64,000 bases of DNA, from positions 1,399,166 through 1,463,165 of the forward strand of contig KV748214.1 in assembly GCA_001692895.1 (NCBI GenBank). The letters run 5' to 3'. This document shows positions 2,536 to 32,805 of the stretch, piece after piece; the stretch's first letter is position 1, and each line of letters starts with the position of its first letter. The translations under genes were made by a program, and so were the position numbers. This DNA comes from Cenococcum geophilum 1.58. Lineage: Eukaryota; Ascomycota; Dothideomycetes; Gloniales; Gloniaceae. Below the pieces are notes generated by a model that ran no database searches, was not told where the DNA came from, and worked only from the letters and a program-made list of their open reading frames with translations.

Positions 2536-5500
2536 AGTGACTACGCGCTAATCTTAATAATTTATAGGTTTCTTTTCCAATTAATATTTTTCGAAGGTTA
2601 ATCTTTGTAGGAAACTATAATTGTCTTACTTCTATTAGTATAGCTACGTTAAATTTATAGAGATTAAATATATGTTTCCTAATATTTACTATAGCTATAC
2701 ACCGCTAATATTTTACAGCAATAGCCAAGGCTTAATTTTACGTAGTTAGCCTAGTTTACATAACTTATGCCAACGAACTCGTTAATGGCTACTATTATAC
2801 TGTTTACTTAGCTAAGGCAAATAGTAAGATTTTACTTAGCTCTAGGAGTATAGGCTGTACTAGGTCGGTTAAGGGCGTATATTACGGCAACGGTAGGTAG
2901 GGGGCAAAAGAGGATATATATAATTTACTCTTAACGCTAGCTGAAAATATTTCTATAGTTGCGGCAACCTCCCTAAATAAGCCAGCTAAGGCTTAATCCT
3001 TACTAGAAATAACCTTCTAGCGCCTAGTAATCTCCGTAAATATATATATAGCTTATTAATAATTCCTAGCTTTAGGATTTACTCCAAGAGAAGCGTTATT
3101 GACGGTATGCCACCTTTATATTATCTAGTAATCCGCCTAATTACTAGTCCTCTTCACGCGCAGCGTCTAGTACAGCGTAAATACGTGGTGCGATTGATGC
3201 AATGCACTATATAGTATTAGCTTAACATAATTTTTTATCTACCCTTATCCCGTGGGTTGCATTAGATAACCAGCTTACCCTACTATATAAGCCACCAATC
3301 TAATATAGCTAACATTACCCTATAACCCCGCTTATAATCATACTATCTAATCTAGAGCTTAGTGGAAAGCCTATATCTATAGGCTTTAGGCGTAATATAG
3401 AGTCTTACAGCATATATATGCCGCAAGCCACTACCTAAGGATAATGTAGTTATAAAAAATTTGTTAGAAAACTTGGCCTTTTTAGGCTCCTAATGGAATA
3501 TTGAGTTGGGTCAAATATATATCTGCTAAGTTTATGCGTCCTTACGTAAAATTAGGTATTTAAACTGCCCCAAGCTCCTAGTTCACTTAAATTACCAGCC
3601 TTTACTTTACTAAGATATTACAATGGATATTAAACCGGATATAAATAATTCGCCCACCAATAACTTAAGCGCTCGGTTACCTACTTTAACGCTAATCACT
3701 AAGAAGCGTGTTAAGGACCAATCTTATAACTAAAAGTAAGCTAAGGGCAACGAGGATACTTAAGTAAGCCGTCTATAGGGATTATGTAGTATAGACTAAT
3801 AAGGCAATTGGAAGGAAACCTTAAAATTACTAGAGCGCCCCCTTATCTCGACTCTGCTATAGATTGAAAATATAGTATTTATACCAATATTTACTTAACA
3901 AAAACCGATAGATAGGATAGGTTTTACCCCGACAAAACTACTAGTGTCAATTGTGGCTATCGCCATATCAGTAGCTACGCATCTGCGTAGGAGGGGTCTT
4001 ACATCTATAGATAAGATAAAGGCTCTCCATAATAAGATAGAGGCTCTTCTTAATAAGATAAAGAAGTCTACTAGGGATTGCCTTACTAGAATAGATGCTA
4101 ATCCGGACGTCTATATACCAGAAACTGTATAAAAGCTTTAGTTAGTAATCTATATAAGGGAGAAGATCGAGATTAAGGGACGTTATGGGATATTTTAGAC
4201 TTTCTTTATTCATAGTAGGCGATTAGAACATTACATAATTAGTATTAGTTTAGATTTACTAAGCAACTACCTTCCTGTTTTTAACTATTCGATTTCTTTA
4301 GTAGATTGGCATTAATATTACGCTGGCGTAAAGTTCCTAGATAATAAGGAGTGCGATTATAAACAGCTTTACTAACTAATGTACTATAGGTGTCCGAGGA
4401 TTTAGCGGACAGGGTATATAGCTGCCCTAACTGTCTAAGTGAGGTTTTTAAGAGAATGGGGTAGTAAAATTCCACAGAACCTGACATTCATTAACTTAAT
4501 TATTGTTTTTAATCATATTATGCTTGATAGAAAAGATTATATTAGATATAATGTTGCAATTATCTATAAAGCGAAGCCTTGATTATTAGGCTTAATATCT
4601 AGGCTTCACTGTTGCCTTTTTAGACAGCTGCTACTCCTATATAGTGGCCTACTGGATTTAAAGTAGTGTATTAGAGTAGATTCGGGGCCGAATCTACTCT
4701 ACTCTAGCCTAAATAAACCACTAGCATACTAGGGCCATACCCTTACGCAACTCTATTACGTAAATCCTATAAAATAGTAAGACAGTATAAATAAAAACCG
4801 AGGCTGCGATAAATTGTAACCTTTGAAGCTTTCTGTCCTCTAGGGGTTATCGGTTAGATAGGTTGACTAGGGTGAAATCTGTGTCTCCGGCTAGGTCTGT
4901 TCCCTACCCTACTCTAACCTTAATATCTATTCCTATTATACCCTTAGTAATATAGACCTACGCTAATTTTGGTATTGCTACCACTTGCCTCTTAAAAATG
5001 TTGCGCTATTGTCTTTCCTATAGTGTATCTTGGTTATACTATAAATAGAAGGTTCCTAAAAAAGGTACCCTACTTAAAATAGGTATCCTAAGACTAGTTT
5101 TAGGGCCCTAAATCACATCCTATTAAAACCTATATTGTTTTTATACTAAGCTAACTAGCCTTATATTACTTGGTTTAAATAAATAAATATATCTTTTATT
5201 TGTTTTTTTGCGGATTGTAGAGGTATAAACTAAAATGGCTCTAATATAATTGAGCAATATTAAACGCGGAAAGTGGAGGAACAAGTGCTAGGAGCAATTA
5301 TTAAAATATATAGGTAAGACCGAACAAGCTCTATTTAATTATAACTAACGCTTCTATAGGGAGCAAGTTAGAAATTATAATAGAGCCGTTATAAGTCCGT
5401 CTTATTCCTGGCCTAGACGATCCTTATATTTAAAGAGTGCTACTAGAAAAGGAGGAACTATTCTTAAGAATTTTTTTAAAAAATATAAGCGATAATTTTA

Positions 5501-7195
5501 TTGGTGCTTATAAGGAATTATATAAAGGAGTTGGCATAACGTTTAAGGCTGTATAGGTTATAGCTACTATAAAGATAAACTCTATAAAAGCGCAAGGCGT
5601 TATAATATCGGTAAATGTATACAAGATATCTTAAATTATTAGGTTTCCTAACTTCTTATAGACGCTAAACTACCTAAAGGTTAGCTTTAGTGCAAAAATT
5701 AATAAGCTATAAACGGAAAATGCTAGGTTAGCTTAAGAGTTAAGTAAATTAAGAGATGAGATATCTATAGAGATAGAGCTTAGGTAGTAGGCAGAGGAAG
5801 AAGTAAGTTGGCTTAGGAATACTAACCAGCAACTTTAATGGGAGGCTTAGGATAGCGTAATAAAGTATATTTAAGGGCTTAATTTAATCGGGCTCCTATT
5901 AGAGGAGTTAAAGACCTAAGCGCCTCTAGGAGGTTGCGAGGTCTTTTGTTAAGTTAAATCCCCAATCTAAGCTAGTAATTTAGATAGTTGAAAAATTTAA
6001 GTATATAAAATTCGCTATAAGAACAAGAGATATTTAGAAGGTTATAAGAGCGAGTGAGCGAGTAAGCATATAAAGTGGGAATAAAAGAGTATAGGATAAA
6101 AAGCGTTCTTTTCTCCGTCCTAGTTACACTAAGTATAGGAACTGCTTTAAAAATATAACAAGTAATTAGGCGTTAGGCTTCGCGCTCTAACTTAAGAAAG
6201 AGATATATCCTTAACTTTAGACTAGTAAGTAGTTATAATTTACGAAGATTCCTAGCTATTAACGCTTTACTTAAGTAAGTACTTCCTAGGGCTTAACGAC
6301 CTAAGTAAAACTCTTTCCTCGGAACTGCCGTTATTATATAATAACACTAATGACTCGCTACCTAAATTGATATTATTATGTAGACGTATGGTAATGTTTA
6401 GGAATACGCCGTCTACGTCATTCCTGCTATTAAGCATTAAGTATTGCGGTAGGGGTTCTTAGGTTAAGGCACTTAATTCCATTAGTTATTGTTTGTAGGC
6501 CCAATTAAAAACCTAATAAGAAAAATAATAGATGTAAGTTTTTAAACGGTTCTGGAGCATAGGTTAAGACCTAGTAAAGGCTATAGCCCGTAATAGGCGT
6601 TTGATAATAATGAAAATGCATATACTAATAATTAGAGATGTTGTTAGTTAATAAGGAGACGAGATAGTATAATATATACATATTTCTAGTATAGATTTTG
6701 TAAAATTATCTAATAATATTAATTTATAAAAAAAATAGAAAGGGCCTAATTCTAGGCCCCCGTTACATCGCCATAGGTTAGCTATTTTTATATCACTTAG
6801 GACTATTTTTAGGACTAGAAGTTCTTGTATAAGTATTAGAAGAATTTATATAGGAACTGGCCTATTTCTATTTCAATATAACTAGTTTTAAAGCATTCTC
6901 TTAAAGTTTATTATCCTCTTATTATGGTAAAGGGAGGAATATAACTAAAGCGAGGTGTCTTAGTTACCTTTATACTTGCCGCTATCTATTATATAGTTCT
7001 AGCGCTGTAGGTACTATATAAGGAAAGCAACATAAAGGCGGGTATTATAACCTTAAGTATAAGATATTACTCTCTATCCGGATTTTTACGAGTGGCTTTA
7101 ACTAATAGGTTCTTAAATTTAGTTTAATTTTACTATTAAACCTCTAGATAATCCTTTCGTTATACTACGCGCCCTTTTAGAGCGAGATATCCTTT
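2536..7195. other. AT-rich RIP-degraded DNA, no gene recognised
   Basis: No intact gene is supported. Plus-strand frames at about 2575-2990 and 3930-4130 keep short coding-like runs with TAG/TAA where Gln or Trp would fit, so decayed genes are likely, but no domain is recognisable. A 62-codon open stretch at 3944-4132 has heptad-like Leu/Ile spacing and no upstream support. I see no RNA gene. Confidence 0.5.
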
Positions 7196-22789: not shown

Positions 22790-22975
22790 AAGTTTCTATA
22801 GCTGTGCGAAGTCTTAGCAAGCGCGCCAACCTTAGCCCCGCAGGCTGGCGATCAAACTCAACTTTGGCCATGCTCTAGTTAACCAACTCACCTCTTACAG
22901 AATTCGCCATCTCACAAGGGTGTAGCCGGAGCGGGTCGGCCGCCCTCCCTACTTGTAGTGGCGACATTTTATGCT
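22790..22975 (-). repeat. Dispersed repeat copy bounding the gene island (left)
   Basis: The reverse complement matches 32143-32330. Both contain a 'tagggaggg(c/t)ggccgacccgct' block, 'acacccttgtgag', 'tggcgaattctgta' and a following 'gcatgg' block. Base composition changes from RIP-type AT-rich to gene-like within a few hundred bases after this copy. Related fragments occur at 35735, 44041 and 55795. Confidence 0.75.
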
Positions 22976-23169: not shown

Positions 23170-23964
23170 TTAGCTGCCTTTCCCAAAGGTAAACCCGCTA
23201 ATCGAGCCAGAGTTGTAGCCTAGCTGGAAGCCAGTGTTATTGCTGCCCGAAAACATAACGTTTTGTGACCCTTGTGTATCATTAGCGGCTTTAGCAAGAG
23301 CCCCTTCTAAAGCCTTATCCTGCTCGGCAGCGATCTCTTGTAGTACCGAAATGCCTTCGTTAGCACCGACCGTGGACACCTCTGTCTCGCAGAGTTGTTG
23401 CTGGAGTGCGCGACTGGCTGGAAAGAGCTCTACGAGGTCGTTGACTAGTTCGATGACATCCTCAATTAGCCTTCTGAAGCGTTTCTCCTCATACAATGCC
23501 CATTTTGCCTTTTGCCGCAAACCAGTTCGATTTTGTCGCTCGATTGAGAGTTGCCGCATTGTGTTATGGAGATCTGCAATTGCAGGTTCGAGATCCGTTT
23601 GCGGATTGCATATTGCAAGGCTGTCATCATCGGCCTTTATCCGACTCTTGTACTTGTCTGAAATACCTTCAGCTTCCCCAAACAAGTCGAGAATCTGACC
23701 AAGTAAAGCGTCGGCCTGGTCGATGTTTTGACGCGAACCAAAGCAATCTTGCAGTGACTGCACATCTTGTATGTTGTCGTTTAATCCCAGAGAACAGCCC
23801 CACCGAGACAGACGTAGTCTTGCATTGTCAAGCTTGAGCTGACTCGTCTGGAAGTTCTTTCCAAAGTTACGGCCAAGCTGAATGAATTCGAAGCACTCCA
23901 CAGTGTTGTTAAAGAGTCCGGCAAGAGCGATGACACTAGCGGCAAGGCCAGCAGCTTCTGCCAT
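23170..23964 (-). CDS. HeLo-domain cell-death effector with C-terminal sigma prion motif (HET-S-like)
   Basis: An intact single-exon gene of 264 aa. Residues 1-225 form a HeLo domain: a short hydrophobic N-terminal helix, then GLFNNTVECFEFIQLGRNFG and LDNARLRLSRWG, which is the sequence style of the Podospora HET-S N-terminal domain. In that family the HeLo domain is a four-to-five-helix bundle that on activation exposes its N-terminal helix and permeabilises the plasma membrane. Residues 242-260 (NNTGFQLGYNSGSISGFTF) form a sigma-type amyloid motif with alternating N/G/Q/G/N/G/I positions, as in the N-termini encoded at 24252 and 27549. I chose the ATG at 23964 because homology begins there; 17 upstream codons are open but atypical. 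Base composition is normal and there are no RIP stops. It would kill the cell when templated by a sigma-bearing NLR. Confidence 0.9.
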   Translation of the reverse strand: MAEAAGLAASVIALAGLFNNTVECFEFIQLGRNFGKNFQTSQLKLDNARLRLSRWGCSLGLNDNIQDVQSLQDCFGSRQNIDQADALLGQILDLFGEAEGISDKYKSRIKADDDSLAICNPQTDLEPAIADLHNTMRQLSIERQNRTGLRQKAKWALYEEKRFRRLIEDVIELVNDLVELFPASRALQQQLCETEVSTVGANEGISVLQEIAAEQDKALEGALAKAANDTQGSQNVMFSGSNNTGFQLGYNSGSISGFTFGKGS

Positions 23965-24251
23965 ACCTTCTGATTGGAATAGGTGTGAGGATGGGAAGCG
24001 TAGGCGGCAAGGCAAAGTGTGGAAGAGTAATGAATACAGTCCTCGGTAAGACTAAATGCTCCTGAACCTCAGCTCTTGAGCTTGCTGTCAGGCGTTAGAG
24101 GGTGAACAGATTGCTTGCAATAGATGTCAGGCTGAACTCTAGCCGCGCGGGGTCCAAGCATGCAAAGCTATAAATAGCCTGGCGAGGAACAGTCCTTGTT
24201 ATGAACCTGGATTTCTAGTCCACGGCGAGCGACAAATTGCGCAAACTCGAT
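23965..24251. promoter_or_regulatory. Divergent promoter between the effector and the sigma stub
   Basis: The 287-bp gap separates the start codons of the minus-strand effector and the plus-strand sigma gene. Such head-to-head placement is known for het-S and its NLR partner nwd2 in Podospora. Sequence is GC-normal. Shared regulation is inferred from the layout only. Confidence 0.55.
24169..24177 (+). promoter_or_regulatory. TATA box of the sigma stub gene
   Basis: TATAAATAG lies 75 bp upstream of the ATG at 24252, inside an otherwise GC-normal intergenic stretch, in the correct orientation and at a plausible distance. Confidence 0.6.
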
Positions 24252-24461
24252 ATGGCCTGTCCTACCATCACGTCCACGTTCACGAGCTCGGGTAACCAAG
24301 GACTGCAAGTCGGGCATAACCCCGACAACATCGAGGCCCACTTCCACCCGGCCGGTAAGTCGCTATTGCTGCCAGTCTATCTAGGGTACAGTAACGCTAA
24401 CAATATGTCAATGAATATAGTGCCCATAGTTAGAATAGTGCTGTTTCGTAAAAGTGTTTAA
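24252..24461 (+). CDS. Short sigma-motif protein; truncated NLR N-terminus
   Basis: Starts MACPTITSTFTSS and continues GNQGLQVGHNPDNIEAHF, a sigma amyloid motif (N15-x-G17-x-Q19-x-G21-x-N23-x-D25-x-I27; the usual last Gly is Asp). A perfect donor GTAAGT begins at 24355. CTAAC lies in the intron and an AG sits at 24419-24420. Splicing joins 24252-24354 to 24421-24461 and gives 47 aa. The 66-nt intron is also open, so the unspliced form gives 69 aa with the same C-terminus. No NACHT follows. It is best read as the surviving first exon of a sigma-NLR divergent from the effector, its body lost. It could still produce a free amyloid peptide. Confidence 0.65.
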   Translation: MACPTITSTFTSSGNQGLQVGHNPDNIEAHFHPAGKSLLLPVYLGYSNANNMSMNIVPIVRIVLFRKSV

Positions 24462-24650
24462 AGCGTTGGTCATGCGATCAAGCCAGTCGTGCGATCAAGC
24501 TGGTCTTGCGACGAAGCTATCAAGCTGGTCGTTCGACGAAGCCGCAGTGTTGCCTTGACAAGGCATTCGCTCTGCAATTGGGCGCTTCACTGGCGGTACC
24601 ATGACTGGAATACAGGCAGTTGGTAATCATGGCTCTACACCCAATTATAG
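24462..24650. other. Spacer with short degenerate repeats
   Basis: Between the stub stop and the pogo element. It opens with a run of 'gcgatcaagc(c/t)(a/g)gtc' and 'gcgacgaagc' units (24474-24545), then GC-normal sequence with no recognised gene. Confidence 0.6.
24474..24545 (+). repeat. Short tandem repeat, about 15-18 bp units
   Basis: Several imperfect copies of 'tgcgatcaagctggtc' and 'gcgacgaagct' in succession directly after the sigma stub. Confidence 0.65.
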
Positions 24651-24837
24651 TATGTAACGTAGCTTATGGGTTTTTGACGGTTTTGAACATCAAAACTACA
24701 GTAATGCCTCAAAATGCTCAATTACAGGCATTTCCCCAAAAAAAGGCATCATGCAGCATTATCTACAATATTAATAAAATGAAGCTTTAGTTTCACATAA
24801 TCAAGGCTCTATCGCGACATTTTATAGTGGTTGTATT

Positions 24838-25385
24838 GGAAGCTCTACTCGAACGTTGCCCATATCCATGCCAACGTCCTCATCTGACGCCTCACTGTCG
24901 CTTGAATTGCTCTGCTCGCCGTCCTCTGCCTCTACCTGCGTATTAACCTCTTCATCTACCTTTTTTGCAGCTGCTATTAAAGCCTTTAAGTGAGCCGTTG
25001 CTGCCTCAAATGTAATTGTAGATGCCTTTGCCGTTGATTGCGCAGCGATCGCAAGTGCTTTAGCTGACGCAGCTTGATCCTCTGCCTTCCTAAATTCCTC
25101 TCGTGCCTCAGCTGTCTTCTTCGCTATCCTAGATGCAGTCTCTAAAGCTTTCTGTGCCTTCTTTGACGCCAGCAGCGCTGCTCGAAACTGCCGCTGGTGT
25201 TGCTCTGCCTTCCTCTTAGCCTCTAATGCGACAGTCCGAGCCTCCTTCCGTGCCTTAACCTGTTTCCTTATATAGTATTACTGCCTCCTGCCGCTTAATT
25301 TTAGATTGCTTCCTTTGTTCCTTGGCGTTCTTTTTAGCTTCCTCTATAGCCTCTCTAGCAGCAACAATTGCCTTCATAAGCAGAA
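24838..25385 (-). pseudogene. C-terminal coiled-coil tail of pogo-type transposase
   Basis: The minus strand reads a long Ala/Glu/Lys/Arg helix (KAIVAAREAIEEAKKNAKEQ and, after a frame change near 25255, ARTVALEAKRKAEQHQRQF) ending in an acidic Ser/Asp/Glu-rich segment and a TAA near 24838. Such charged helical tails are usual after the DDE domain of pogo/Fot1 transposases. The DDE core that should precede it is missing. Confidence 0.65.
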
Positions 25386-25514
25386 AAGCCGGCATTTGCA
25401 AGGTATATACACTGTCGCACGGCCGCAGATTCCGCAGGGGGTAGTAGTCGTTGCAGGTGAGTATGCGCGACTTTGTGAGATTTATGTTTGCCGTTGAGTC
25501 GCCTGCGCAATGTA

Positions 25515-26937
25515 AGAGTATGGTGCAAAAAAGGTGCATAGAGGCGAAAAATTCGCTTATTTTTTCCAAGTCATTTTGCGGTAAAACTAATCATGCCTGC
25601 GTACTGTGTATACTGCCACCTACGACCGCCTAAAAAATCCAAAACATTACCACCGCGTTAACTTCTTCAAGCTTTAACACGCGACAATGAGCTCCCCGGC
25701 CCGTGGGCCGGCTCCAAAGAGCTATTTTAGGACCCCTACGCGTGTACGGGTCCGATCATACAGCAATGCGGGTCTTTTACAACCTCAAATCGTTAAAAAG
25801 ATGAATACTGAGCACGGCGTGTTAATATCTCAATCAGCAGTCAGTCGCATCGTTACATCTAAACGCAATCGCCGCTATAAAGCACCTGGACGCAATTATA
25901 AGCTCTTGGAATGAGCTGTCCGCTACGTAACATAACTAATTTGACAGGGCTAGTACGGTAGACGCATGACTTACGCACGATTAATTAAGCAACTAGATCT
26001 TAAAGCCTTACGGTATACCCTTAGCCGCGCACTCCAAAGGCACGGCTACTATCGCTGTATAGCCTGTCGACGTCCCTTTATCAGCAATAAACAGCAACAA
26101 AAGCGCCTTAATTAGGCCTAACGTTACGTTACTTGGTCAATTAACGCGTGGGTAACAGTGATATGGTTAGACGAATGCAGCTTTATCACCGGCGAGTAAG
26201 GAAGGCTATATATTACAAGAAGGACCGGCGAGAAGACTTATCCTAATTATATACAATCAGTATTTCGCTTAGGGAGGACGTCTTTTATAGTATAGGGAGC
26301 GATTGGTTAGAGGTGGAAGTCCAAGCTTGTGTTTTTGGAGAGACGACATAGCAAGAAAGGGATTAATAGCAGAGATTACGCAGAGCAGGTCCTTAAAGTA
26401 AGTATTTGTTCTCTGCTATTTTAAACCTCTACTAACCTAAAAAAAGGCAGTAGTTGGCCCATTCCTTAAAGATATGGAACCCGATACTATATTTATGGAA
26501 GATAGTACGCCGGTTTACAAGGGGGCAGCAAAGGCAGTTCGTAAAAGGCTTGGTATTAAAGGATTTAGTAACAATTGGCCTCTAAGCTCACCAGATCTAA
26601 ATCCTATTAAGAAGGTCTAGTTGTGGATAAAGGCATAGATTGCACAGATAGAGCCCTTTCCAACGTCGCTTAAGGAGCTTAAGCAGGTAGTTTAGGACCT
26701 TTGGGACGAGCTAGATCTATGCTAGGCACTTAAATATATTAAGAATATGCAGGAGAAGTGCAAGGAAGTTATTAAATGTCAAGGATTGGCGACAAAATAT
26801 TGATTGTTTAGAGTTTTGGTATAGTGTTAAGCCTTGGGACTACTTTGTACGTAGGCGTGATTGAAAATGCACGCAAAATGACTTAGAAAAAATAAGCGAA
26901 TTTTTCGCCTCTATGCACCTTTTTTGCACCATACTCT
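25515..26937 (+). mobile_element. Tc1-like transposon nested in the pogo element
   Basis: A 1423-bp element flanked by TA (25513-25514 and 26938-26939). The terminal inverted repeats are about 66 bp, starting agagtatggtgcaaaaaagg, with about one mismatch visible. Near-identical TIRs point to a recent insertion. It carries a RIP-damaged transposase on the plus strand. Confidence 0.9.
25687..26803 (+). pseudogene. Tc1-like DDE transposase, inactivated
   Basis: The ATG at 25687 opens 75 clean codons with a paired HTH (IVKKMNTEHGVLISQSAVSR). In-frame stops start at 25912. The catalytic motifs remain legible: WLDECSF (first Asp), MEDSTPVYKG (second Asp), and SSPDLNPIKKVW, where the third acidic residue of the usual N-P-I-E is Lys. 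An intron with GTAAGT at 26398 and an acceptor near 26446-26450 separates the first and second motifs. The frame ends at TGA 26801-26803. Substitutions and stops fit RIP. Transposition in cis is not possible. Confidence 0.85.
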
Positions 26938-27226
26938 TATTTGGGTCAACGCCGTAAGACTTTGCAGCATCTTCCCGGCTTTTATAGAGGCCATTCTTGA
27001 AGCCAGTAATTTCTAACTTAATCCTCTGGTCCGCATCAGGTTTGCGAGTCTAGTAGGGCATAGTGACGTTAATGGTAAATTTCTTAAATATAGATCAAGC
27101 ATTATTGAGGAATTAATTGTTTTGATTCTTGGGGCGGCAGTATAAGTCGCTAAACTTAAATAGGCAAGCGGTAAGAAAAACCGTCAAAAACCCCCCAACC
27201 GTCAAAAACCCATAAGCTACGTTAGT

Positions 27227-27548
27227 TATACCAATAGCTCAGATTTAAATCATGACTGCTGATGCTCTTCGTCCTACAGACAGCCAGAGGAAAATGCTGT
27301 TCCTTTATTTGTTTATTTCGGTGAGCTGAACCAGCCACGCTGGCCACGCTGGCCACGCTGGCCACGCTGGCCACGCTAGCCACGGCTGGCCACGTTGGTC
27401 ACGGCTGGCCACGCTGGTCACGCAGCAAGTCACCAGGTCATGTATTTATCAATAGTTGTTATGGCTTTGGGGCTCGCAAGTCAGATCAATCGTTGATATA
27501 CATTTTTTCTTGATCACGGGGAGTCGGTGGCCCATTGACATCGAAAAC
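27227..27548. promoter_or_regulatory. NLR upstream region with a CCACGCTGG minisatellite
   Basis: About 320 bp between the pogo element and the NLR start. It contains the 9-10-bp tandem repeat at 27338-27426. No TATA box as good as that at 24169 is visible. Promoter function is inferred from position. Confidence 0.45.
27338..27426 (+). repeat. Minisatellite, 9-10 bp unit (ccacgctgg)
   Basis: About nine units of 'ccacgctgg' and variants ('ccacggctgg', 'tcacgctgg') in tandem, ending about 120 bp upstream of the NLR start codon. Confidence 0.85.
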
Positions 27549-30500
27549 ATGGCCCAGAATTTGTCCAGCTATTTCAAAAATACTACTAACTATGGCCTCG
27601 AGGTAGGCATCAACCTCGGTAACATTAACCTCGGTACATCACCTGTTTGTTCCTGCCCAAAGAAAAGCTCACTGACGCTCCCAAGCGACTGATAAAGAAG
27701 ACTACACTACTCGCCATGACCAAATCAAGCGAGATCGGGAACTGGGGACCTGTGACTGGATTCTGGAAAGGGACGAGCTTAAGGAATGGGATCGAGAGGA
27801 AGTGAGGACTTCTGTTCTCTGGATCCATGGCCAGGGTTGGTGTTCCTTGGACTGGATTGGTGGGTGCTTGGGTTAACCACGCAGTAGTTGGTTGCGGCAA
27901 GACAACCCTCGTGTGAGTGATGCTGCTATGCTAATGCCCTCAGGCCAGTTAAAAGGCTAATCCCATCTGCGGTGTAGGTCCCGAATCATCGATGAGCTTC
28001 ATAAGCGGGAAGAGATCCATCTGCTCTATTTCTACATCAGCGCGACCGATCTTCTACTCAAGGACCGAAAAACTCTCCTGCGGACATTTGCGAAACAAAT
28101 CATCCGTCGCAACCATGAAGCGGTGCAAACTCCGACCCAAATCACCAAAGACCATCAGTTTGAAAGCGAGATTCAAGCGTCTCTGTTCCGTTATCTTCGG
28201 CACGAGGCCAAGTCTTCTGTGTACATCGTCGTCGATGCTGTGGACGAATATGACCGGAACAATCGCGACTGGCTGATTGACACCCTCATCGGGGAATACC
28301 AGCCAGATTCCAGTCTCTCCCGTTTTAAGATTCTCATCAGTTCTCGTGATACGATTGGCATTAAAAAAATCAGGACGGTTGACAAGCAGACTAAAGTTCA
28401 CACCATCGAGATCGGGCTCAGGGATAACGTCGATGATATCCGATATTTCGTGCGGAGTAAACTCGAGAAATTGCGCATTGAAAACCCTCTATACGACGTG
28501 AATTGGCAGGAAGAGGTCCTGGAAAATCTAACCGAACATGCGAATGGAATGTCAGTAGCCCTTCGCTTTGTGTTTCTTCATTTCGCTCTTCGACCGTACA
28601 TGTTAAAATATGCTATACTAAATTTAGACCAGGTTCCTGTGGGTTTCTTTACAGATGAAAATGATCACTGAGACGGCGCCCATTAATATCCTTAATTATG
28701 TCAATGGACTCGCTCTGCCGAAGGGAATGCAGGACGTCTACAAGGATATCATGGAAAAATTCTCCAAAGCCCCAAACGAGCGAATAATTGCCAGAAAGAC
28801 CTTGACCTTGCTCATCCACGCGACAAGACCAATTGCAGTGGACGCCTTGCTGGAGGCTGTCGCCATGGACACAACCAAGAATGGACTCGACACGGACTTC
28901 TTAGATGGATTGAAGCGCAGTCCAAAAGAAATCATTCGCATCTGCAGATATCTCGTGGTGATGGACGAGGACCCGCGTGTCTTTCGATTCACCCATTCCT
29001 CCGTTTACGAATACCTAACGACTGGCGATCAACCGCACCAACGTCTTGCATTGGAGAAGACCAGTGATCATGCCCTTCTGGCAGAGATCTGTTTGTCATA
29101 TCTATGCTGCGACAGGTTTTCGGAAGGGCCACGGAGTTATCTTGCTCTTTACGATCCTAGTCCTCTCAAGACATGCCTGGGCGATAATCCGTTGCTGGAG
29201 TTTGCCTCTACCCAGTGGGCTTGTCACACCCGGTCAAGTATGAGCGAATCTCTGAACCGCCTGCTTGAATTGTGCCAGAAAGTACAAAATATGCTGCTCG
29301 CCTTTCAGGTGTTCCTGTTCAGCCGTCACGTGGTCATGGCCACTGGTGTTCGTTCCACACATATAATCAGTTACTTTGGCTTGTTTGACTTCCTCGATGT
29401 CTTGGATCGCGAAGGTCTTTTGGAAAAGGATGCTCAGGCCGGGAATGGGTTCACGGCAATGCATTGGGCCATCGACGGCCAACAAGGGAGTGTCCTAGAC
29501 ACGGTGAAGAAACTGATCACATATAAAGCAGACATCAACGCCCAAGATGATAAAGGTCGCACCCCTCTGTACCATGCCGCACACCAAGAAGATCTAGATG
29601 TGGTCACAGAGCTTCTGCAGACGAAGAATGTGAAGGTCGACTGCCACAGAAAGGCGTTAGGAACTGCGTTGATAGTGGCCTCGTACAAGGGCCATGCAGA
29701 CATTGTCAGGAAGCTTATTAAAGCGCGAGCAGACGCTACAATCATGAGCGATTTTGGAACGGCGTTACATGCGGCAGCCTCACAGGGATCTAAGGAGTGC
29801 GTTTCTATAATCCTGGAGAGTAAATCAGCTGGATCATTAGATGTAGTTGGACCACATATCGGCACGCCTCTTCATGAGGCAGCCTTTTATGGTCAACACG
29901 AAATCGTGCAAATGCTTCTCGAAAATAGGTTTGACGTCAAAAAGATGAGCAGAGACTACGGAAACCCTTTGCAAGCCGCATCAGCTGGATGTTTTCAGGG
30001 TATGGACTCGACTGATTTCAAGGAGATCTTCCGGATCCTCTTTCAGTTTAATGTGGACGTCAACGCTCAAGGGGGCAGATTTACAACGGCTCTACATGTT
30101 GCTGCTCAATACGGCCATCTGGACTTGGCTGAGATGCTGATCAATAAGGGAGCGAATGTTGACATCAAGGGGCCCAATGGAACCGCATTCCAGGAGGCAG
30201 GGCGAGGAAGACATACGGACATCATGGATCTCCTCGCCAAATGCGGGGCAAGTACAGCACCTGAGCCGTCAGATCATGCCTCCGAAGCTGATAGTAGAAA
30301 TAACTATGCCAGTGGACGAGACACAGTCCGTCGCCCAAAAGGTCTTTTTAGAATCTTCGAACCTCCTCTGTGGATGTTTAGGAATGCATTGAAAGCCAAT
30401 GAAGAGAAACGAATGGAGATCTTCTTTTCGTCTTACACGTGCGGTATTGAGCATGCGATCAAGATGCACCAGGACGGTTTCCTTGAGATGCTGGTTTCTG

Positions 30501-31522
30501 TTGGCGAGCAGGTTTTCAAAGATGTAATCTCCCTCACGACTCCCCGAGATGATTCACAAGCCGGCGAGTCTGTCATGGATACGCATTCGTCCATCAATGT
30601 TCTCAGGAGTCTGACCCAGGCCCTGCTGGATATCTTTATCCGCATCTTCAACAAGGTGAGGAGGTCTCAAGCCAGCAAGAAAGTTAAGACCAGACGAAAA
30701 GTTTCCAGGGTAGCTAGATTACGAACGGACGCTTTTCCTTTCTATAGCACCAACCCTGCCTTTAAAACCCTGGATCGCCTTACGCAGATGGCAGTGTCCA
30801 TCCTGGCTTACGCGATGGAGAGGGAGAATGTGGCGGCGGTCGAGCTGATATCGAAGACCTGGACGGAAGCCCTGTACAAGGTACAGGACGATCTCGGCGA
30901 TGAGATGCTCAGGGTTCTCATTGACGCTCGTGCCAAGGAATTACAGGCTTGCCTTGCCGAGAACAAAATGGAAGCAGCGAAACGCCTGGCTAGAGTCGGG
31001 GTTCAATTATTGGCCACGGCAGTTGGTCAGGGCGCACATTACAAGCCCTTAGTCCATAGCCTTGCACGGCTCTGGACTTTCGCCATGAGAGATGTCGACA
31101 GGTTGGGTGAGGACACAAGGGATGACTGCTTGAGTCAGTTGCTCGGAACGGTTATCCAAGACTTTGAAGTTGGTCTCAGAAAGGGCGATGATGCAAAGAT
31201 CGAGCAATTCACCCAAGCCACCATTGAGGTTTTCGGGCAGATAATAACCGAGGGCCTCGACGGCCTGTTTGATGTGATGGCCAGAATATGTGTAACAATG
31301 TGGAATGCGGTAATCATGTACCACAAAGAGCAACTTATTAATGGGGTTCTGGAGGGCAGAGCAGAAGAGCTTGTCAGACTCGGAGAGTTCGCCGGGGTCG
31401 ACATGAGGATTTTTCACGCAGGATATAGCTTTGAGACTGAGGGAGTGACACAGAAGCTGTCAGATATCATTATCAAAGTGCTACAGTCGGCCCTCGCCAG
31501 CAATCGCAGGGATTTTTCTTGA
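27549..31522 (+). CDS. NLR: sigma amyloid motif - NACHT - ankyrin repeats
   Basis: Modelled as join(27549-27633, 27686-27835, 27888-27912, 27978-28550, 28633-31522), 1240 aa. All introns are GT-AG (52, 52, 65, 82 nt), and frame is kept throughout. Residues 14-28 (NYGLEVGINLGNINL) are a sigma prion motif. NACHT: Walker A GQVGCGKT at 77-84, Walker B VVDAVDE at about 171-177, sensor ILISSRD at 205-211. FLWV-type helices follow near 279. Ankyrin repeats span about 547-817 (for example GTPLHEAAFYGQHEIVQMLL, TTALHVAAQYGHLDLAEMLI). The tail is a helical region of unknown family. Expected role: ligand binding by the repeats triggers oligomerisation, and the sigma motif then nucleates the HeLo effector encoded at 23170-23964. 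The ATG at 27549 was chosen because it directly precedes the motif. A probable one-base frameshift at the T-run 31513-31517 sets the present stop. Confidence 0.87.
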
Positions 31523-31592: not shown

Positions 31593-31595
31593 ACC

Positions 31596-31845
31596 ATGGG
31601 TTATGTCTTCAATGCCGCTGCCAGTATTATCGTAGCTGCAAAGGAGAAGGAGTATCTGGAACTTCTAGAGATCCTGTACCGAGCGGCGCTGCAGACGCTT
31701 AAGGGCCATACCGACTCTGTCAGCGCCGTAGCCTTCTTGCCGGATGTCAAGTCGGTGGCGTCGGCATCGGCGTCATGATAAGACAGTCCGGCTCTGGGAC
31801 GCAGAGTCAAAAGACTGAGAAGAAACGGCCGAAACGGAGCGCGTG
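31596..31845 (+). pseudogene. Broken WD40 repeat fragment
   Basis: The frame from 31596 gives a helix, then LQTLKGHTDSVSAVAFLPDV and VASAS, the first three strands of a WD40 repeat of the highly repetitive fungal HET/NWD type. A TGA falls at 31778. Two bases later in register, the continuation KTVRLWDAESKD is readable, so about two G bases appear to be missing from the Trp-Asp codons. One repeat only. It could be a leftover of a neighbouring WD40-bearing NLR or the end of a once longer or fused NLR here. Confidence 0.7.
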
Positions 31846-32142: not shown

Positions 32143-32805
32143 AGGTGGCACACCGCCACCGCTAGCAGGGAGGGTGGCCGACCCGCTCTGGCTACACCCT
32201 TGTGAGGTGGCGAATTCTGTAGCCGTTTTCAGAGAGTTGAGTTGGTTGACCAGACGCATGGCTAAGGTTAAGTTAGATCGCAAGGCTGCGGGCCCACTTG
32301 CCAAGACTCCGTACAGCCACAGGCTTGGACTTGCTTGATTGACGTAAGTAAATTACTTCCTAGATATCACGTGGAATGTGCGGGGTCGTTTTACACTAGC
32401 CGGAATTAGTAATCGCTTTAATTAGAGGTAGTAACCCGCGTGGCGACCTTACATAAATTTGCGTACCATAGTAGACACAAGGCTAATAATGACTTCCTAA
32501 CATCGTAACGAAGTTCTCAGGCTCGGATAAGACCCTGTTATAAGTTTTATAAGTAGTAAGAGCTTAATAGTGGTGCTATAGTAAAGGGACATTATTACGC
32601 TCTAAAAGGAGGCTCTCTGCAAATAAGGCGCGAAGGCGACAATGCGAGCGTAATTTATAGATATAAAGGGTCTCGAATATTACAGAGTAGCTATATATAA
32701 CTATAGTAAAGCATAATGTGTGCGCAGAGTTATAGTTACTTAAAGTCAAAGTACCCCTTATATTTTCCGGTACGGTGGGTTTTCCGCGACGCAAGGACGG
32801 ACGTT
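32143..32805 (+). repeat. Composite dispersed repeat, right island border, left arm of a palindrome
   Basis: Starts with the 'cgccaccgctagcagggagg' block (inverted copy at 22.9 kb) and ends with the MITE terminus (..cggtgggttttccgcgac..ggacgtt). In between it carries the 'aaaggaggctctctgc..gcgaaggcgac' block. Collinear with 44041-44730. From about 32340 it also forms an imperfect palindrome with 32806-33230. Confidence 0.75.

Follow-up and report, generated by a model that had tools for sequence, protein, structure and literature searches.

A probable PP-type amyloid signalling locus in Cenococcum geophilum, likely after replacement of its receptor

Which amyloid motif is shared by a HeLo effector gene and the NOD-like receptor (NLR) gene beside it in Cenococcum geophilum 1.58, and do the two belong to one cell-death pathway? 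Both genes lie in a stretch of 64,000 nucleotides, here called the window (C39:1399166-1463165), of a 177.2-Mb genome in 162 contigs, of which those named below are abbreviated C8, C10, C11, C39, C41 and C46. The locus is best read as a PP-type (pseudo-palindrome) amyloid signalling locus for regulated cell death, probably after its receptor was replaced: a HeLo effector ends in a PP motif, the probable leftover first exon of a lost PP receptor stands head-to-head with it, and a NACHT-ankyrin NLR with a PP-like N-terminus adjoins them. The features, in window coordinates, are the following.

23170..23964, minus strand: HeLo-PP effector, single exon, 264 aa; HeLo domain at about residues 6-200, PP tail at about 238-258
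23191..23253, minus strand: PP amyloid motif of the effector, FSGSNNTGFQLGYNSGSISGF, assigned from sequence, PP consensus and a 22-sequence alignment
23965..24251, no strand: spacer of 287 bp between divergent start codons (279 bp in the C41 pair, same arrangement); presumed shared promoter of the effector and the 24252 exon
24252..24354, plus strand: orphan PP exon, GTAAGT donor at 24355; match to exon 1 of the C41 receptor
24655..27224, no strand: outer transposon, separating the relic exon from the NLR; its terminal inverted repeats are 28 bp long, perfect, and start at TA
25513..26939, no strand: second transposon nested inside the first, with 68-bp terminal inverted repeats, 99% complementary
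27549..27633, plus strand: NLR exon 1, holding the PP-like motif NYGLEVGINLGNI; E in place of the central Q; PF17046 16.2 bits
27686-27835, 27888-27912 and 27978-28550, plus strand: NLR exons 2-4, NACHT-type ATPase, Walker A and B intact
28633..31522, plus strand: NLR exon 5, winged-helix-like stretch, ankyrin repeats and a C-terminal region of unassigned type common to relatives

A preliminary description of this DNA had proposed three genes carrying one sigma-type amyloid motif. The three peptides, at the effector C-terminus, at 24252 and at 27549, are real and stand where they had been placed; the one at 24252, however, belongs to an exon without a receptor body. All three matched the same profile, PF17046, the effector over the cut-off and the other two under it, with 16.2 bits each for the 24252 (+) and 27549 (+) peptides against a cut-off of 23.2 (E-value about 0.01 for the whole Pfam library). 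That an amyloid-signalling motif is shared between the effector C-terminus and the N-terminus of the neighbouring NLR was thereby borne out, with the NLR match below cut-off. PF17046 is termed "PP (misnamed SesB)" in PMC12261475, and "PP (Pfam Ses_B)" is entered separately from NACHT_sigma in PMC8086366. The sigma motif is described as three-fold repeats GxGxQFNxx and GGTQNINT over about 40 aa (PMC3321046, PMC5485727), the PP motif as FxGx(x)NxGLQLxGxNxGxL with the core NxGxQxGxN (PMC3321046, PMC9815663). The effector motif FSGSNNTGFQLGYNSGSI fits PP, and NQGLQVGHN of the 24252 exon has the PP core; NYGLEVGIN of the NLR fails the strict core by the change of Q to E, with the other fixed positions kept. 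Because of this change and the PF17046 score below cut-off, the NLR motif is named PP-like and not PP. Neither the sigma profile PF17106 nor the HET-s motif (PF11558; HET-s-related amyloid motif, two 21-aa repeats) had a match in the window at E≤1, a search in which the HMMER filters drop most matches above about 0.1, and no sigma strings were found in the tail of the window effector. The lack of a sigma profile match was the outcome that the preliminary description itself had named as speaking against its proposal; the motif had been mis-typed, and the PP motif takes its place. As judged by profile and consensus, the three shared motifs are of the PP type (RHIM-related, necroptosis-like), the NLR copy being PP-like.

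The motif is rare in the genome. A degenerate DNA pattern for NxG[LF][QE]xGxN gave 13 matches in the 177 Mb, eight of them near-copies of one repeat, and three of the five non-repeat matches lie within 4.4 kb of each other at this locus, for which reason the presence of the three motifs together is taken as more than chance; the reversed pattern matched four times genome-wide. With a PP profile built from effector relatives and run on the open reading frames (ORFs) of the window, the effector scored E 3.5e-13 and the 24252 exon 2.3e-6. Since the PP motif is a pseudo-palindrome, reversal of sequences was judged a poor control and was replaced by shuffling, by which none of 1000 shuffles of the first 60 NLR residues reached the PP score of the original.

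The effector at 23170-23964 (-) is an uninterrupted ORF of 264 aa, and its HeLo domain, recognised in the preliminary description from the letters alone, was upheld by profile search (PF14479, 176.5 bits, cut-off 23.2, profile positions 1-197 of 205). Its C-terminal residues 230-257 match PF17046 with 28.4 bits (cut-off 23.2). Among solved structures, the effector is closest in sequence to the HET-s/HET-S HeLo domains 2wvn (E 3.9e-36) and 2wvo (E 1.1e-35), presumably divided between HET-s and HET-S by our own reading of residue 33. In alignment with these two, residue 33 of the effector is N, where inactive HET-s has P and HET-S has H, and at this residue the effector is thus not of the inactive HET-s type. 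A substitution at HeLo residue 33 is reported to abolish pore formation (PMC5485727). An AlphaFold model of the effector had a confidence (pLDDT) of 40 and was not usable.

Of 1625 candidates, 393 proteins were homologues of the effector at E≤0.001, and the counts that follow rest on the 120 matches listed, the window's own included. Residue 33 was legible in 97 of the 120, never as P, and illegible in 23. The exact core NxGxQxGxN stands in the last 60 residues of 99 of the 119 other listed homologues; of the 20 others, 19 deviate at a single one of the five fixed positions and P0042, by eye, at two, its central Q also being E (GFELANN). The 22-sequence alignment shows no variation at N243, G245, N251 and G253 and almost none at Q247. 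The closest named relatives among the matches listed include Lophium, Delitschia and Mytilinidion, genera placed near Cenococcum, and a database entry (P0008, same or other strain) is 99% identical over 75% of the effector. A scan of viral contigs with the effector, made for context, gave no match. Within the genome the effector is 69% identical to a paralogue on C41, with non-synonymous and synonymous rates (dN, dS) of 0.198 and 1.63 by the NG86 method (ratio about 0.12) and of 0.214 and 1.03 by YN00 (ratio 0.21); synonymous sites are near saturation, so that only the low ratio is usable, and by this ratio the effector is under purifying selection. An AT-rich stretch of C8 (C8:1526844-1526954, L036:4845-4955) holds a decayed PP tail with two stop codons, 62% identical to the effector tail, likely a copy decayed by repeat-induced point mutation (RIP).

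What, then, is the exon at 24252, which had been described as a second sigma N-terminus? Its 35 residues found, at E≤1 in the genome, only themselves and C41:1428849-1428947 (-), 58% identical at E 1.6e-6 (19 of 33 aa). The C41 sequence stands head-to-head with the effector paralogue, also HeLo-PP (C41:1429227-1430018, +), and is followed by ORFs with an NB-ARC-like match (PF00931, 15.6 bits, below the cut-off of 23.5) and a tetratricopeptide-repeat match (TPR_10, 238 bits), which together with the PP exon would form one spliced gene. Orientation is the same at both loci and the start-codon spacing near-equal (287 bp in the window, 279 bp on C41, from the alignment offset), and the nucleotide alignment spans the whole 24252 exon and runs just beyond the splice donor, which has the same position. 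Over 33 codons dN was 0.24 and dS 0.79 (NG86; YN00 returned no value), too short a stretch to judge selection. No receptor body was found after the exon: of the 91 listed matches of the C41 NB-ARC ORF none is inside the window, and the stretches beside the outer transposon, 295 bp on the exon side and 324 bp on the other, are single-copy in the genome. On the comparison with C41 the 24252 exon is probably the leftover exon 1 of a lost PP receptor with NB-ARC-like and TPR parts, not a second receptor; two working receptors at the locus were considered and rejected, as no receptor body was found behind 24252.

The NLR itself, 27549-31522 (+), has five exons and GT-AG introns of 52, 52, 65 and 82 nt, and encodes 1240 aa in an intact frame; its splice sites are predictions picked by frame and homology, and the acceptor of intron 1, AAG, is not the commonest one. 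The NACHT-ankyrin assignment of the preliminary description was confirmed by NPHP3_N (PF24883) over cut-off on two ORF pieces (27.2 and 52.9 bits), by the Walker A and B motifs GQVGCGKT and IVVDAVDE, and by ankyrin repeats (PF00023, 134.4 bits); NACHT (PF05729, 14.9 bits, cut-off 26.7) and GPIID_WHD (20.2 bits) stayed below cut-off. The large exon is single-copy in the genome, the next best match being 32% identical (48 of 374 candidates scored). The region after the ankyrin repeats (window 30300-31522, +) aligns in relatives from distant fungal classes and has no Pfam family over cut-off.

Among 7996 candidates scored, 47 NLR homologues were found at E≤0.001, and the N-termini of 19 of them were inspected. 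Three (P0121, P0128 and P0129) appear to begin inside the gene; P0121, from the same or another strain, is 99.7% identical over the NLR. The nearer relatives (P0122-P0127, P0130 and P0131), which are NACHT-ankyrin NLRs of Orbilia, Arthrobotrys, Drechslerella, Trichoderma, Aspergillus wentii and Arachnomyces, are 33-48% identical to the window NLR, and seven of these eight have a PP-like string at the N-terminus (P0122, P0124, P0125, P0126, P0127, P0130 and P0131; P0123 is without). The PP score was reached per 1000 shuffles by none for the window NLR, P0122, P0124, P0127, P0130 and P0131, by one for P0125, 11 for P0126 and 29 for P0123. The more distant homologues P0132-P0137 (29-32% identity) have a different short N-terminus, P0138 a PNP_UDP domain ahead of the NACHT part, and P0139 a long N-terminus of another kind. 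Present in seven of the eight near relatives tested, the PP-like N-terminus looks like a trait of the NLR family. The seven keep the central Q, whereas the window NLR, alone among the eight motif-bearing sequences, has E.

In the history that we favour, the original layout would have been that of C41, a HeLo-PP effector head-to-head with a PP receptor with NB-ARC-like and TPR parts. Loss of the receptor body would then have left exon 1 behind at 24252. The present neighbour of the effector is a NACHT-ankyrin receptor from another family, which has a PP-like exon of its own and lies about 1 kb off: with the 2570-bp outer transposon subtracted, 1017 bp separate the start codons of effector and NLR. 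A Pfam scan of both transposons matched no transposase family. The effector has probably changed its receptor. In operation, the ankyrin part of the NLR would bind a ligand, upon which the NACHT domain would oligomerise; the PP-like N-termini would stack into a small amyloid, this seed would convert the effector's PP tail, and the HeLo domain would put its N-terminal helix into the plasma membrane and so kill the cell.

Do effector and NLR work together? By local alignment the effector and orphan motifs share 8 of 18 residues, the effector and NLR motifs 7 of 19, the orphan and NLR motifs 10 of 22, and the C41 effector and C41 receptor motifs 11 of 19. PP motifs within clusters are given as 32-48% identical, and 36% permitted cross-seeding (PMC7885112); as both the effector-NLR and the effector-orphan pairs fall within 32-48%, a partnership is possible by identity. 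The PP-like NLR gene adjoins the PP effector gene, the adjacency by which a PP signalosome is recognised, and because the genes are adjacent and the motif is rare in the genome, we regard the partnership as somewhat more probable than its absence. Several observations weigh against it and against the proposed history. The central Q to E change, with PF17046 below cut-off, is the main doubt. With the effector-based PP profile the NLR motif had an E-value of 0.56 among the 1805 window ORFs, at noise level, the best reversed-window control reaching 0.93, and reversed NLR N-termini scored close to forward ones. The NLR motif has the same alignment score, 41, with the window effector and with the C41 effector; being equally close to both, it gives no sign of co-evolution within the locus. 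For sigma motifs, greater likeness within a cluster than between clusters has been described (PMC3321046). Finally, the evidence that the old receptor body is absent consists of the single-copy 295-bp and 324-bp stretches and the NB-ARC search.

A rival idea is that the effector is served by another receptor, such as that of C41, and that the NACHT-ankyrin NLR is a chance neighbour signalling elsewhere. In its favour, alignment with the window effector gives a score of 59 for the motif of the C41 receptor and of 41 for that of the local NLR, the latter motif has E at the central position, and genes that are not adjacent are suspected of signalling to each other (PMC9815663). A PP-like string is nevertheless so rare, with five non-repeat pattern matches, that its presence on an NLR about 1 kb from a PP effector, the transposon discounted, makes a chance neighbour rather unlikely.

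The locus could also be a dying remnant in which no pathway operates. The window is mostly AT-rich, with a RIP-like TpA/ApT ratio of 1.6 in both flanks of a gene island at about 22-32 kb (GC 0.43-0.51), and this setting, the nested transposons, the relic exon of a lost receptor and the degenerate NLR motif (E for Q) would all suit decay. The frames of effector and NLR are intact, however, their gene bodies are not RIP-like (TpA/ApT 0.79 for the effector gene and 0.54 for the NLR), and near-identical database entries exist for both (P0008 and P0121); on this evidence a remnant is unlikely.

Less probable still is that the 24252 exon remains in use, either spliced to NLR exon 2 as an alternative first exon or translated into a PP-only peptide of 69 aa by which the effector would be seeded or blocked. 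Phase 1 is shared by the donor at 24355 and the acceptor of NLR exon 2 at 27686, so that joining preserves the frame and, from the shared promoter, would supply a PP motif with intact Q; read-through past the donor gives the 69-aa ORF, in which the motif is intact. Yet with the transposon inside it the intron to exon 2 would measure 3331 nt, the NLR already has a first exon, and agreement of phase alone is a one-in-three chance. A sigma-motif locus of the Nectria ses type, where an ankyrin NLR likewise adjoins the effector (het-eN/sesA/sesB; PMC3321046), is scarcely credible, with no PF17106 match, an effector domain that is HeLo and not SesA, a single motif of about 20 aa that fits PP, and simplified sigma strings in one (G.G.QF) and none (GG.QN) of the 120 listed effector tails, the window's included.

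The favoured reading, a PP locus after receptor replacement, can be set beside known systems. HeLo-PP genes adjoining NB-ARC-TPR NLR genes were described in Arthroderma in 2012 (PMC3321046), so that this kind of system is already known, and the pairing of a HeLo domain with a non-HET-s motif beside an NLR is less notable than had been claimed. The pairs of Arthroderma otae and A. gypseum have the same C-terminal PP effector and adjacent N-terminal PP NLR, and share the plan of the C41 pair; unlike them, the window has a NACHT-ankyrin receptor and a probable NB-ARC-TPR relic. The hellp/pnt1 system of Podospora anserina and hellp/sbp/pnt1 of Chaetomium globosum likewise have PP on the effector C-terminus and the NLR N-terminus, and prion templating has been demonstrated for hellp/pnt1 systems (PMC7885112); they differ in a HeLo-like (HELL) effector and in PNT1 being NB-ARC-TPR, and the window locus is known from sequence alone. 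With het-S/nwd2 of P. anserina the locus has in common a HeLo domain and a NACHT NLR, but its motif is PP in one copy instead of the two-repeat HET-s fold, and its repeats are ankyrin, not WD. With het-eN/sesA/sesB of Nectria haematococca it has in common an ankyrin-bearing NACHT receptor adjoining an effector, and differs from it in the sigma motif and the SesA/SesB effectors.

Nor is it new in itself for a NACHT receptor to carry an amyloid motif, since 44% of amyloid-motif NLRs in Sordariales are given as T-NACHT (PMC12258605); PP is counted in 296 NLR sequences (PMC9815663). In the open-access literature, supplementary tables excluded, no report was found of a HeLo-PP gene with a PP NACHT-ankyrin receptor next to it, or of a relic receptor exon of the 24252 kind. 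The locus is thus probably a known kind of system with an unusual history, in which one receptor family replaced another under the same effector. The preliminary description, partly supported on the whole, had sensed the kind of system correctly.

The other PP loci examined in the genome (C41, C10, C46 and, weakly, C11) have NB-ARC-like/TPR receptors, which makes the window the exception. On C11 (L067, C11:910500-914500) a HeLo ORF of 98 residues, truncated or split (profile positions 1-64 of 205), faces a TPR ORF with 53% identity to the NB-ARC ORF of C41, and the sequence between them matches PP weakly (E 0.022); this is apparently a third pair of the C41 kind, decayed. On C10 an ORF at L035:4343-4957, hydrolase-like by our own reading of its sequence, ends in a PP motif (PF17046, 28 bits); behind it lie another PP match, at 5371-5544 (E 1.4e-4), and a TPR-repeat ORF (165 bits). 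On C46 (L034, C46:410500-420400) one strand carries in a row hydrolase-like ORFs, a match to PP (E 3.7e-5) and an ORF that is NB-ARC-like in one part (18.6 bits, below cut-off) and TPR in another (147 bits), perhaps as one fused gene. A Pfam scan of the hydrolase-like ORFs on C46 and C10 matched no hydrolase family.

Around the gene island, inverted copies of a dispersed repeat (I3) stand at window 22800-22965 and 32154-32270. The possibility that they bound a mobile cassette with the locus inside was considered and rejected: of 148 candidate sites for the left copy 40 were scored, every one of which matched, so that this copy occurs at least 40 times in the genome and I3 is a dispersed repeat, not a pair of cassette ends. 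Just 3' of the NLR a short ORF (window 31593-31778, +), perhaps left over from another NLR, contains a stretch resembling WD40 (24.9 bits, cut-off 27).

A bolder and doubtful proposal is that the exchange of receptors is caught in mid-course: the effector would have outlived its NB-ARC-TPR receptor and been adopted by an unrelated NACHT-ankyrin one that came with a PP-like motif of its own, while the orphan exon would still serve, either as an alternative first exon of the new receptor or as a free PP peptide by which seeding is tuned. If so, amyloid motifs would be an interchangeable plug by which receptors are swapped under one effector. The correction from sigma to PP places the system in the RHIM- and necroptosis-related branch, and the window locus and the intact C41 pair, in one genome, form a matched pair for asking how far a PP motif may change, the Q to E change included, and still allow templating. 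If the exchange is real, short amyloid motifs would make fungal immune receptors modular, a new sensor being gained without protein fusion.

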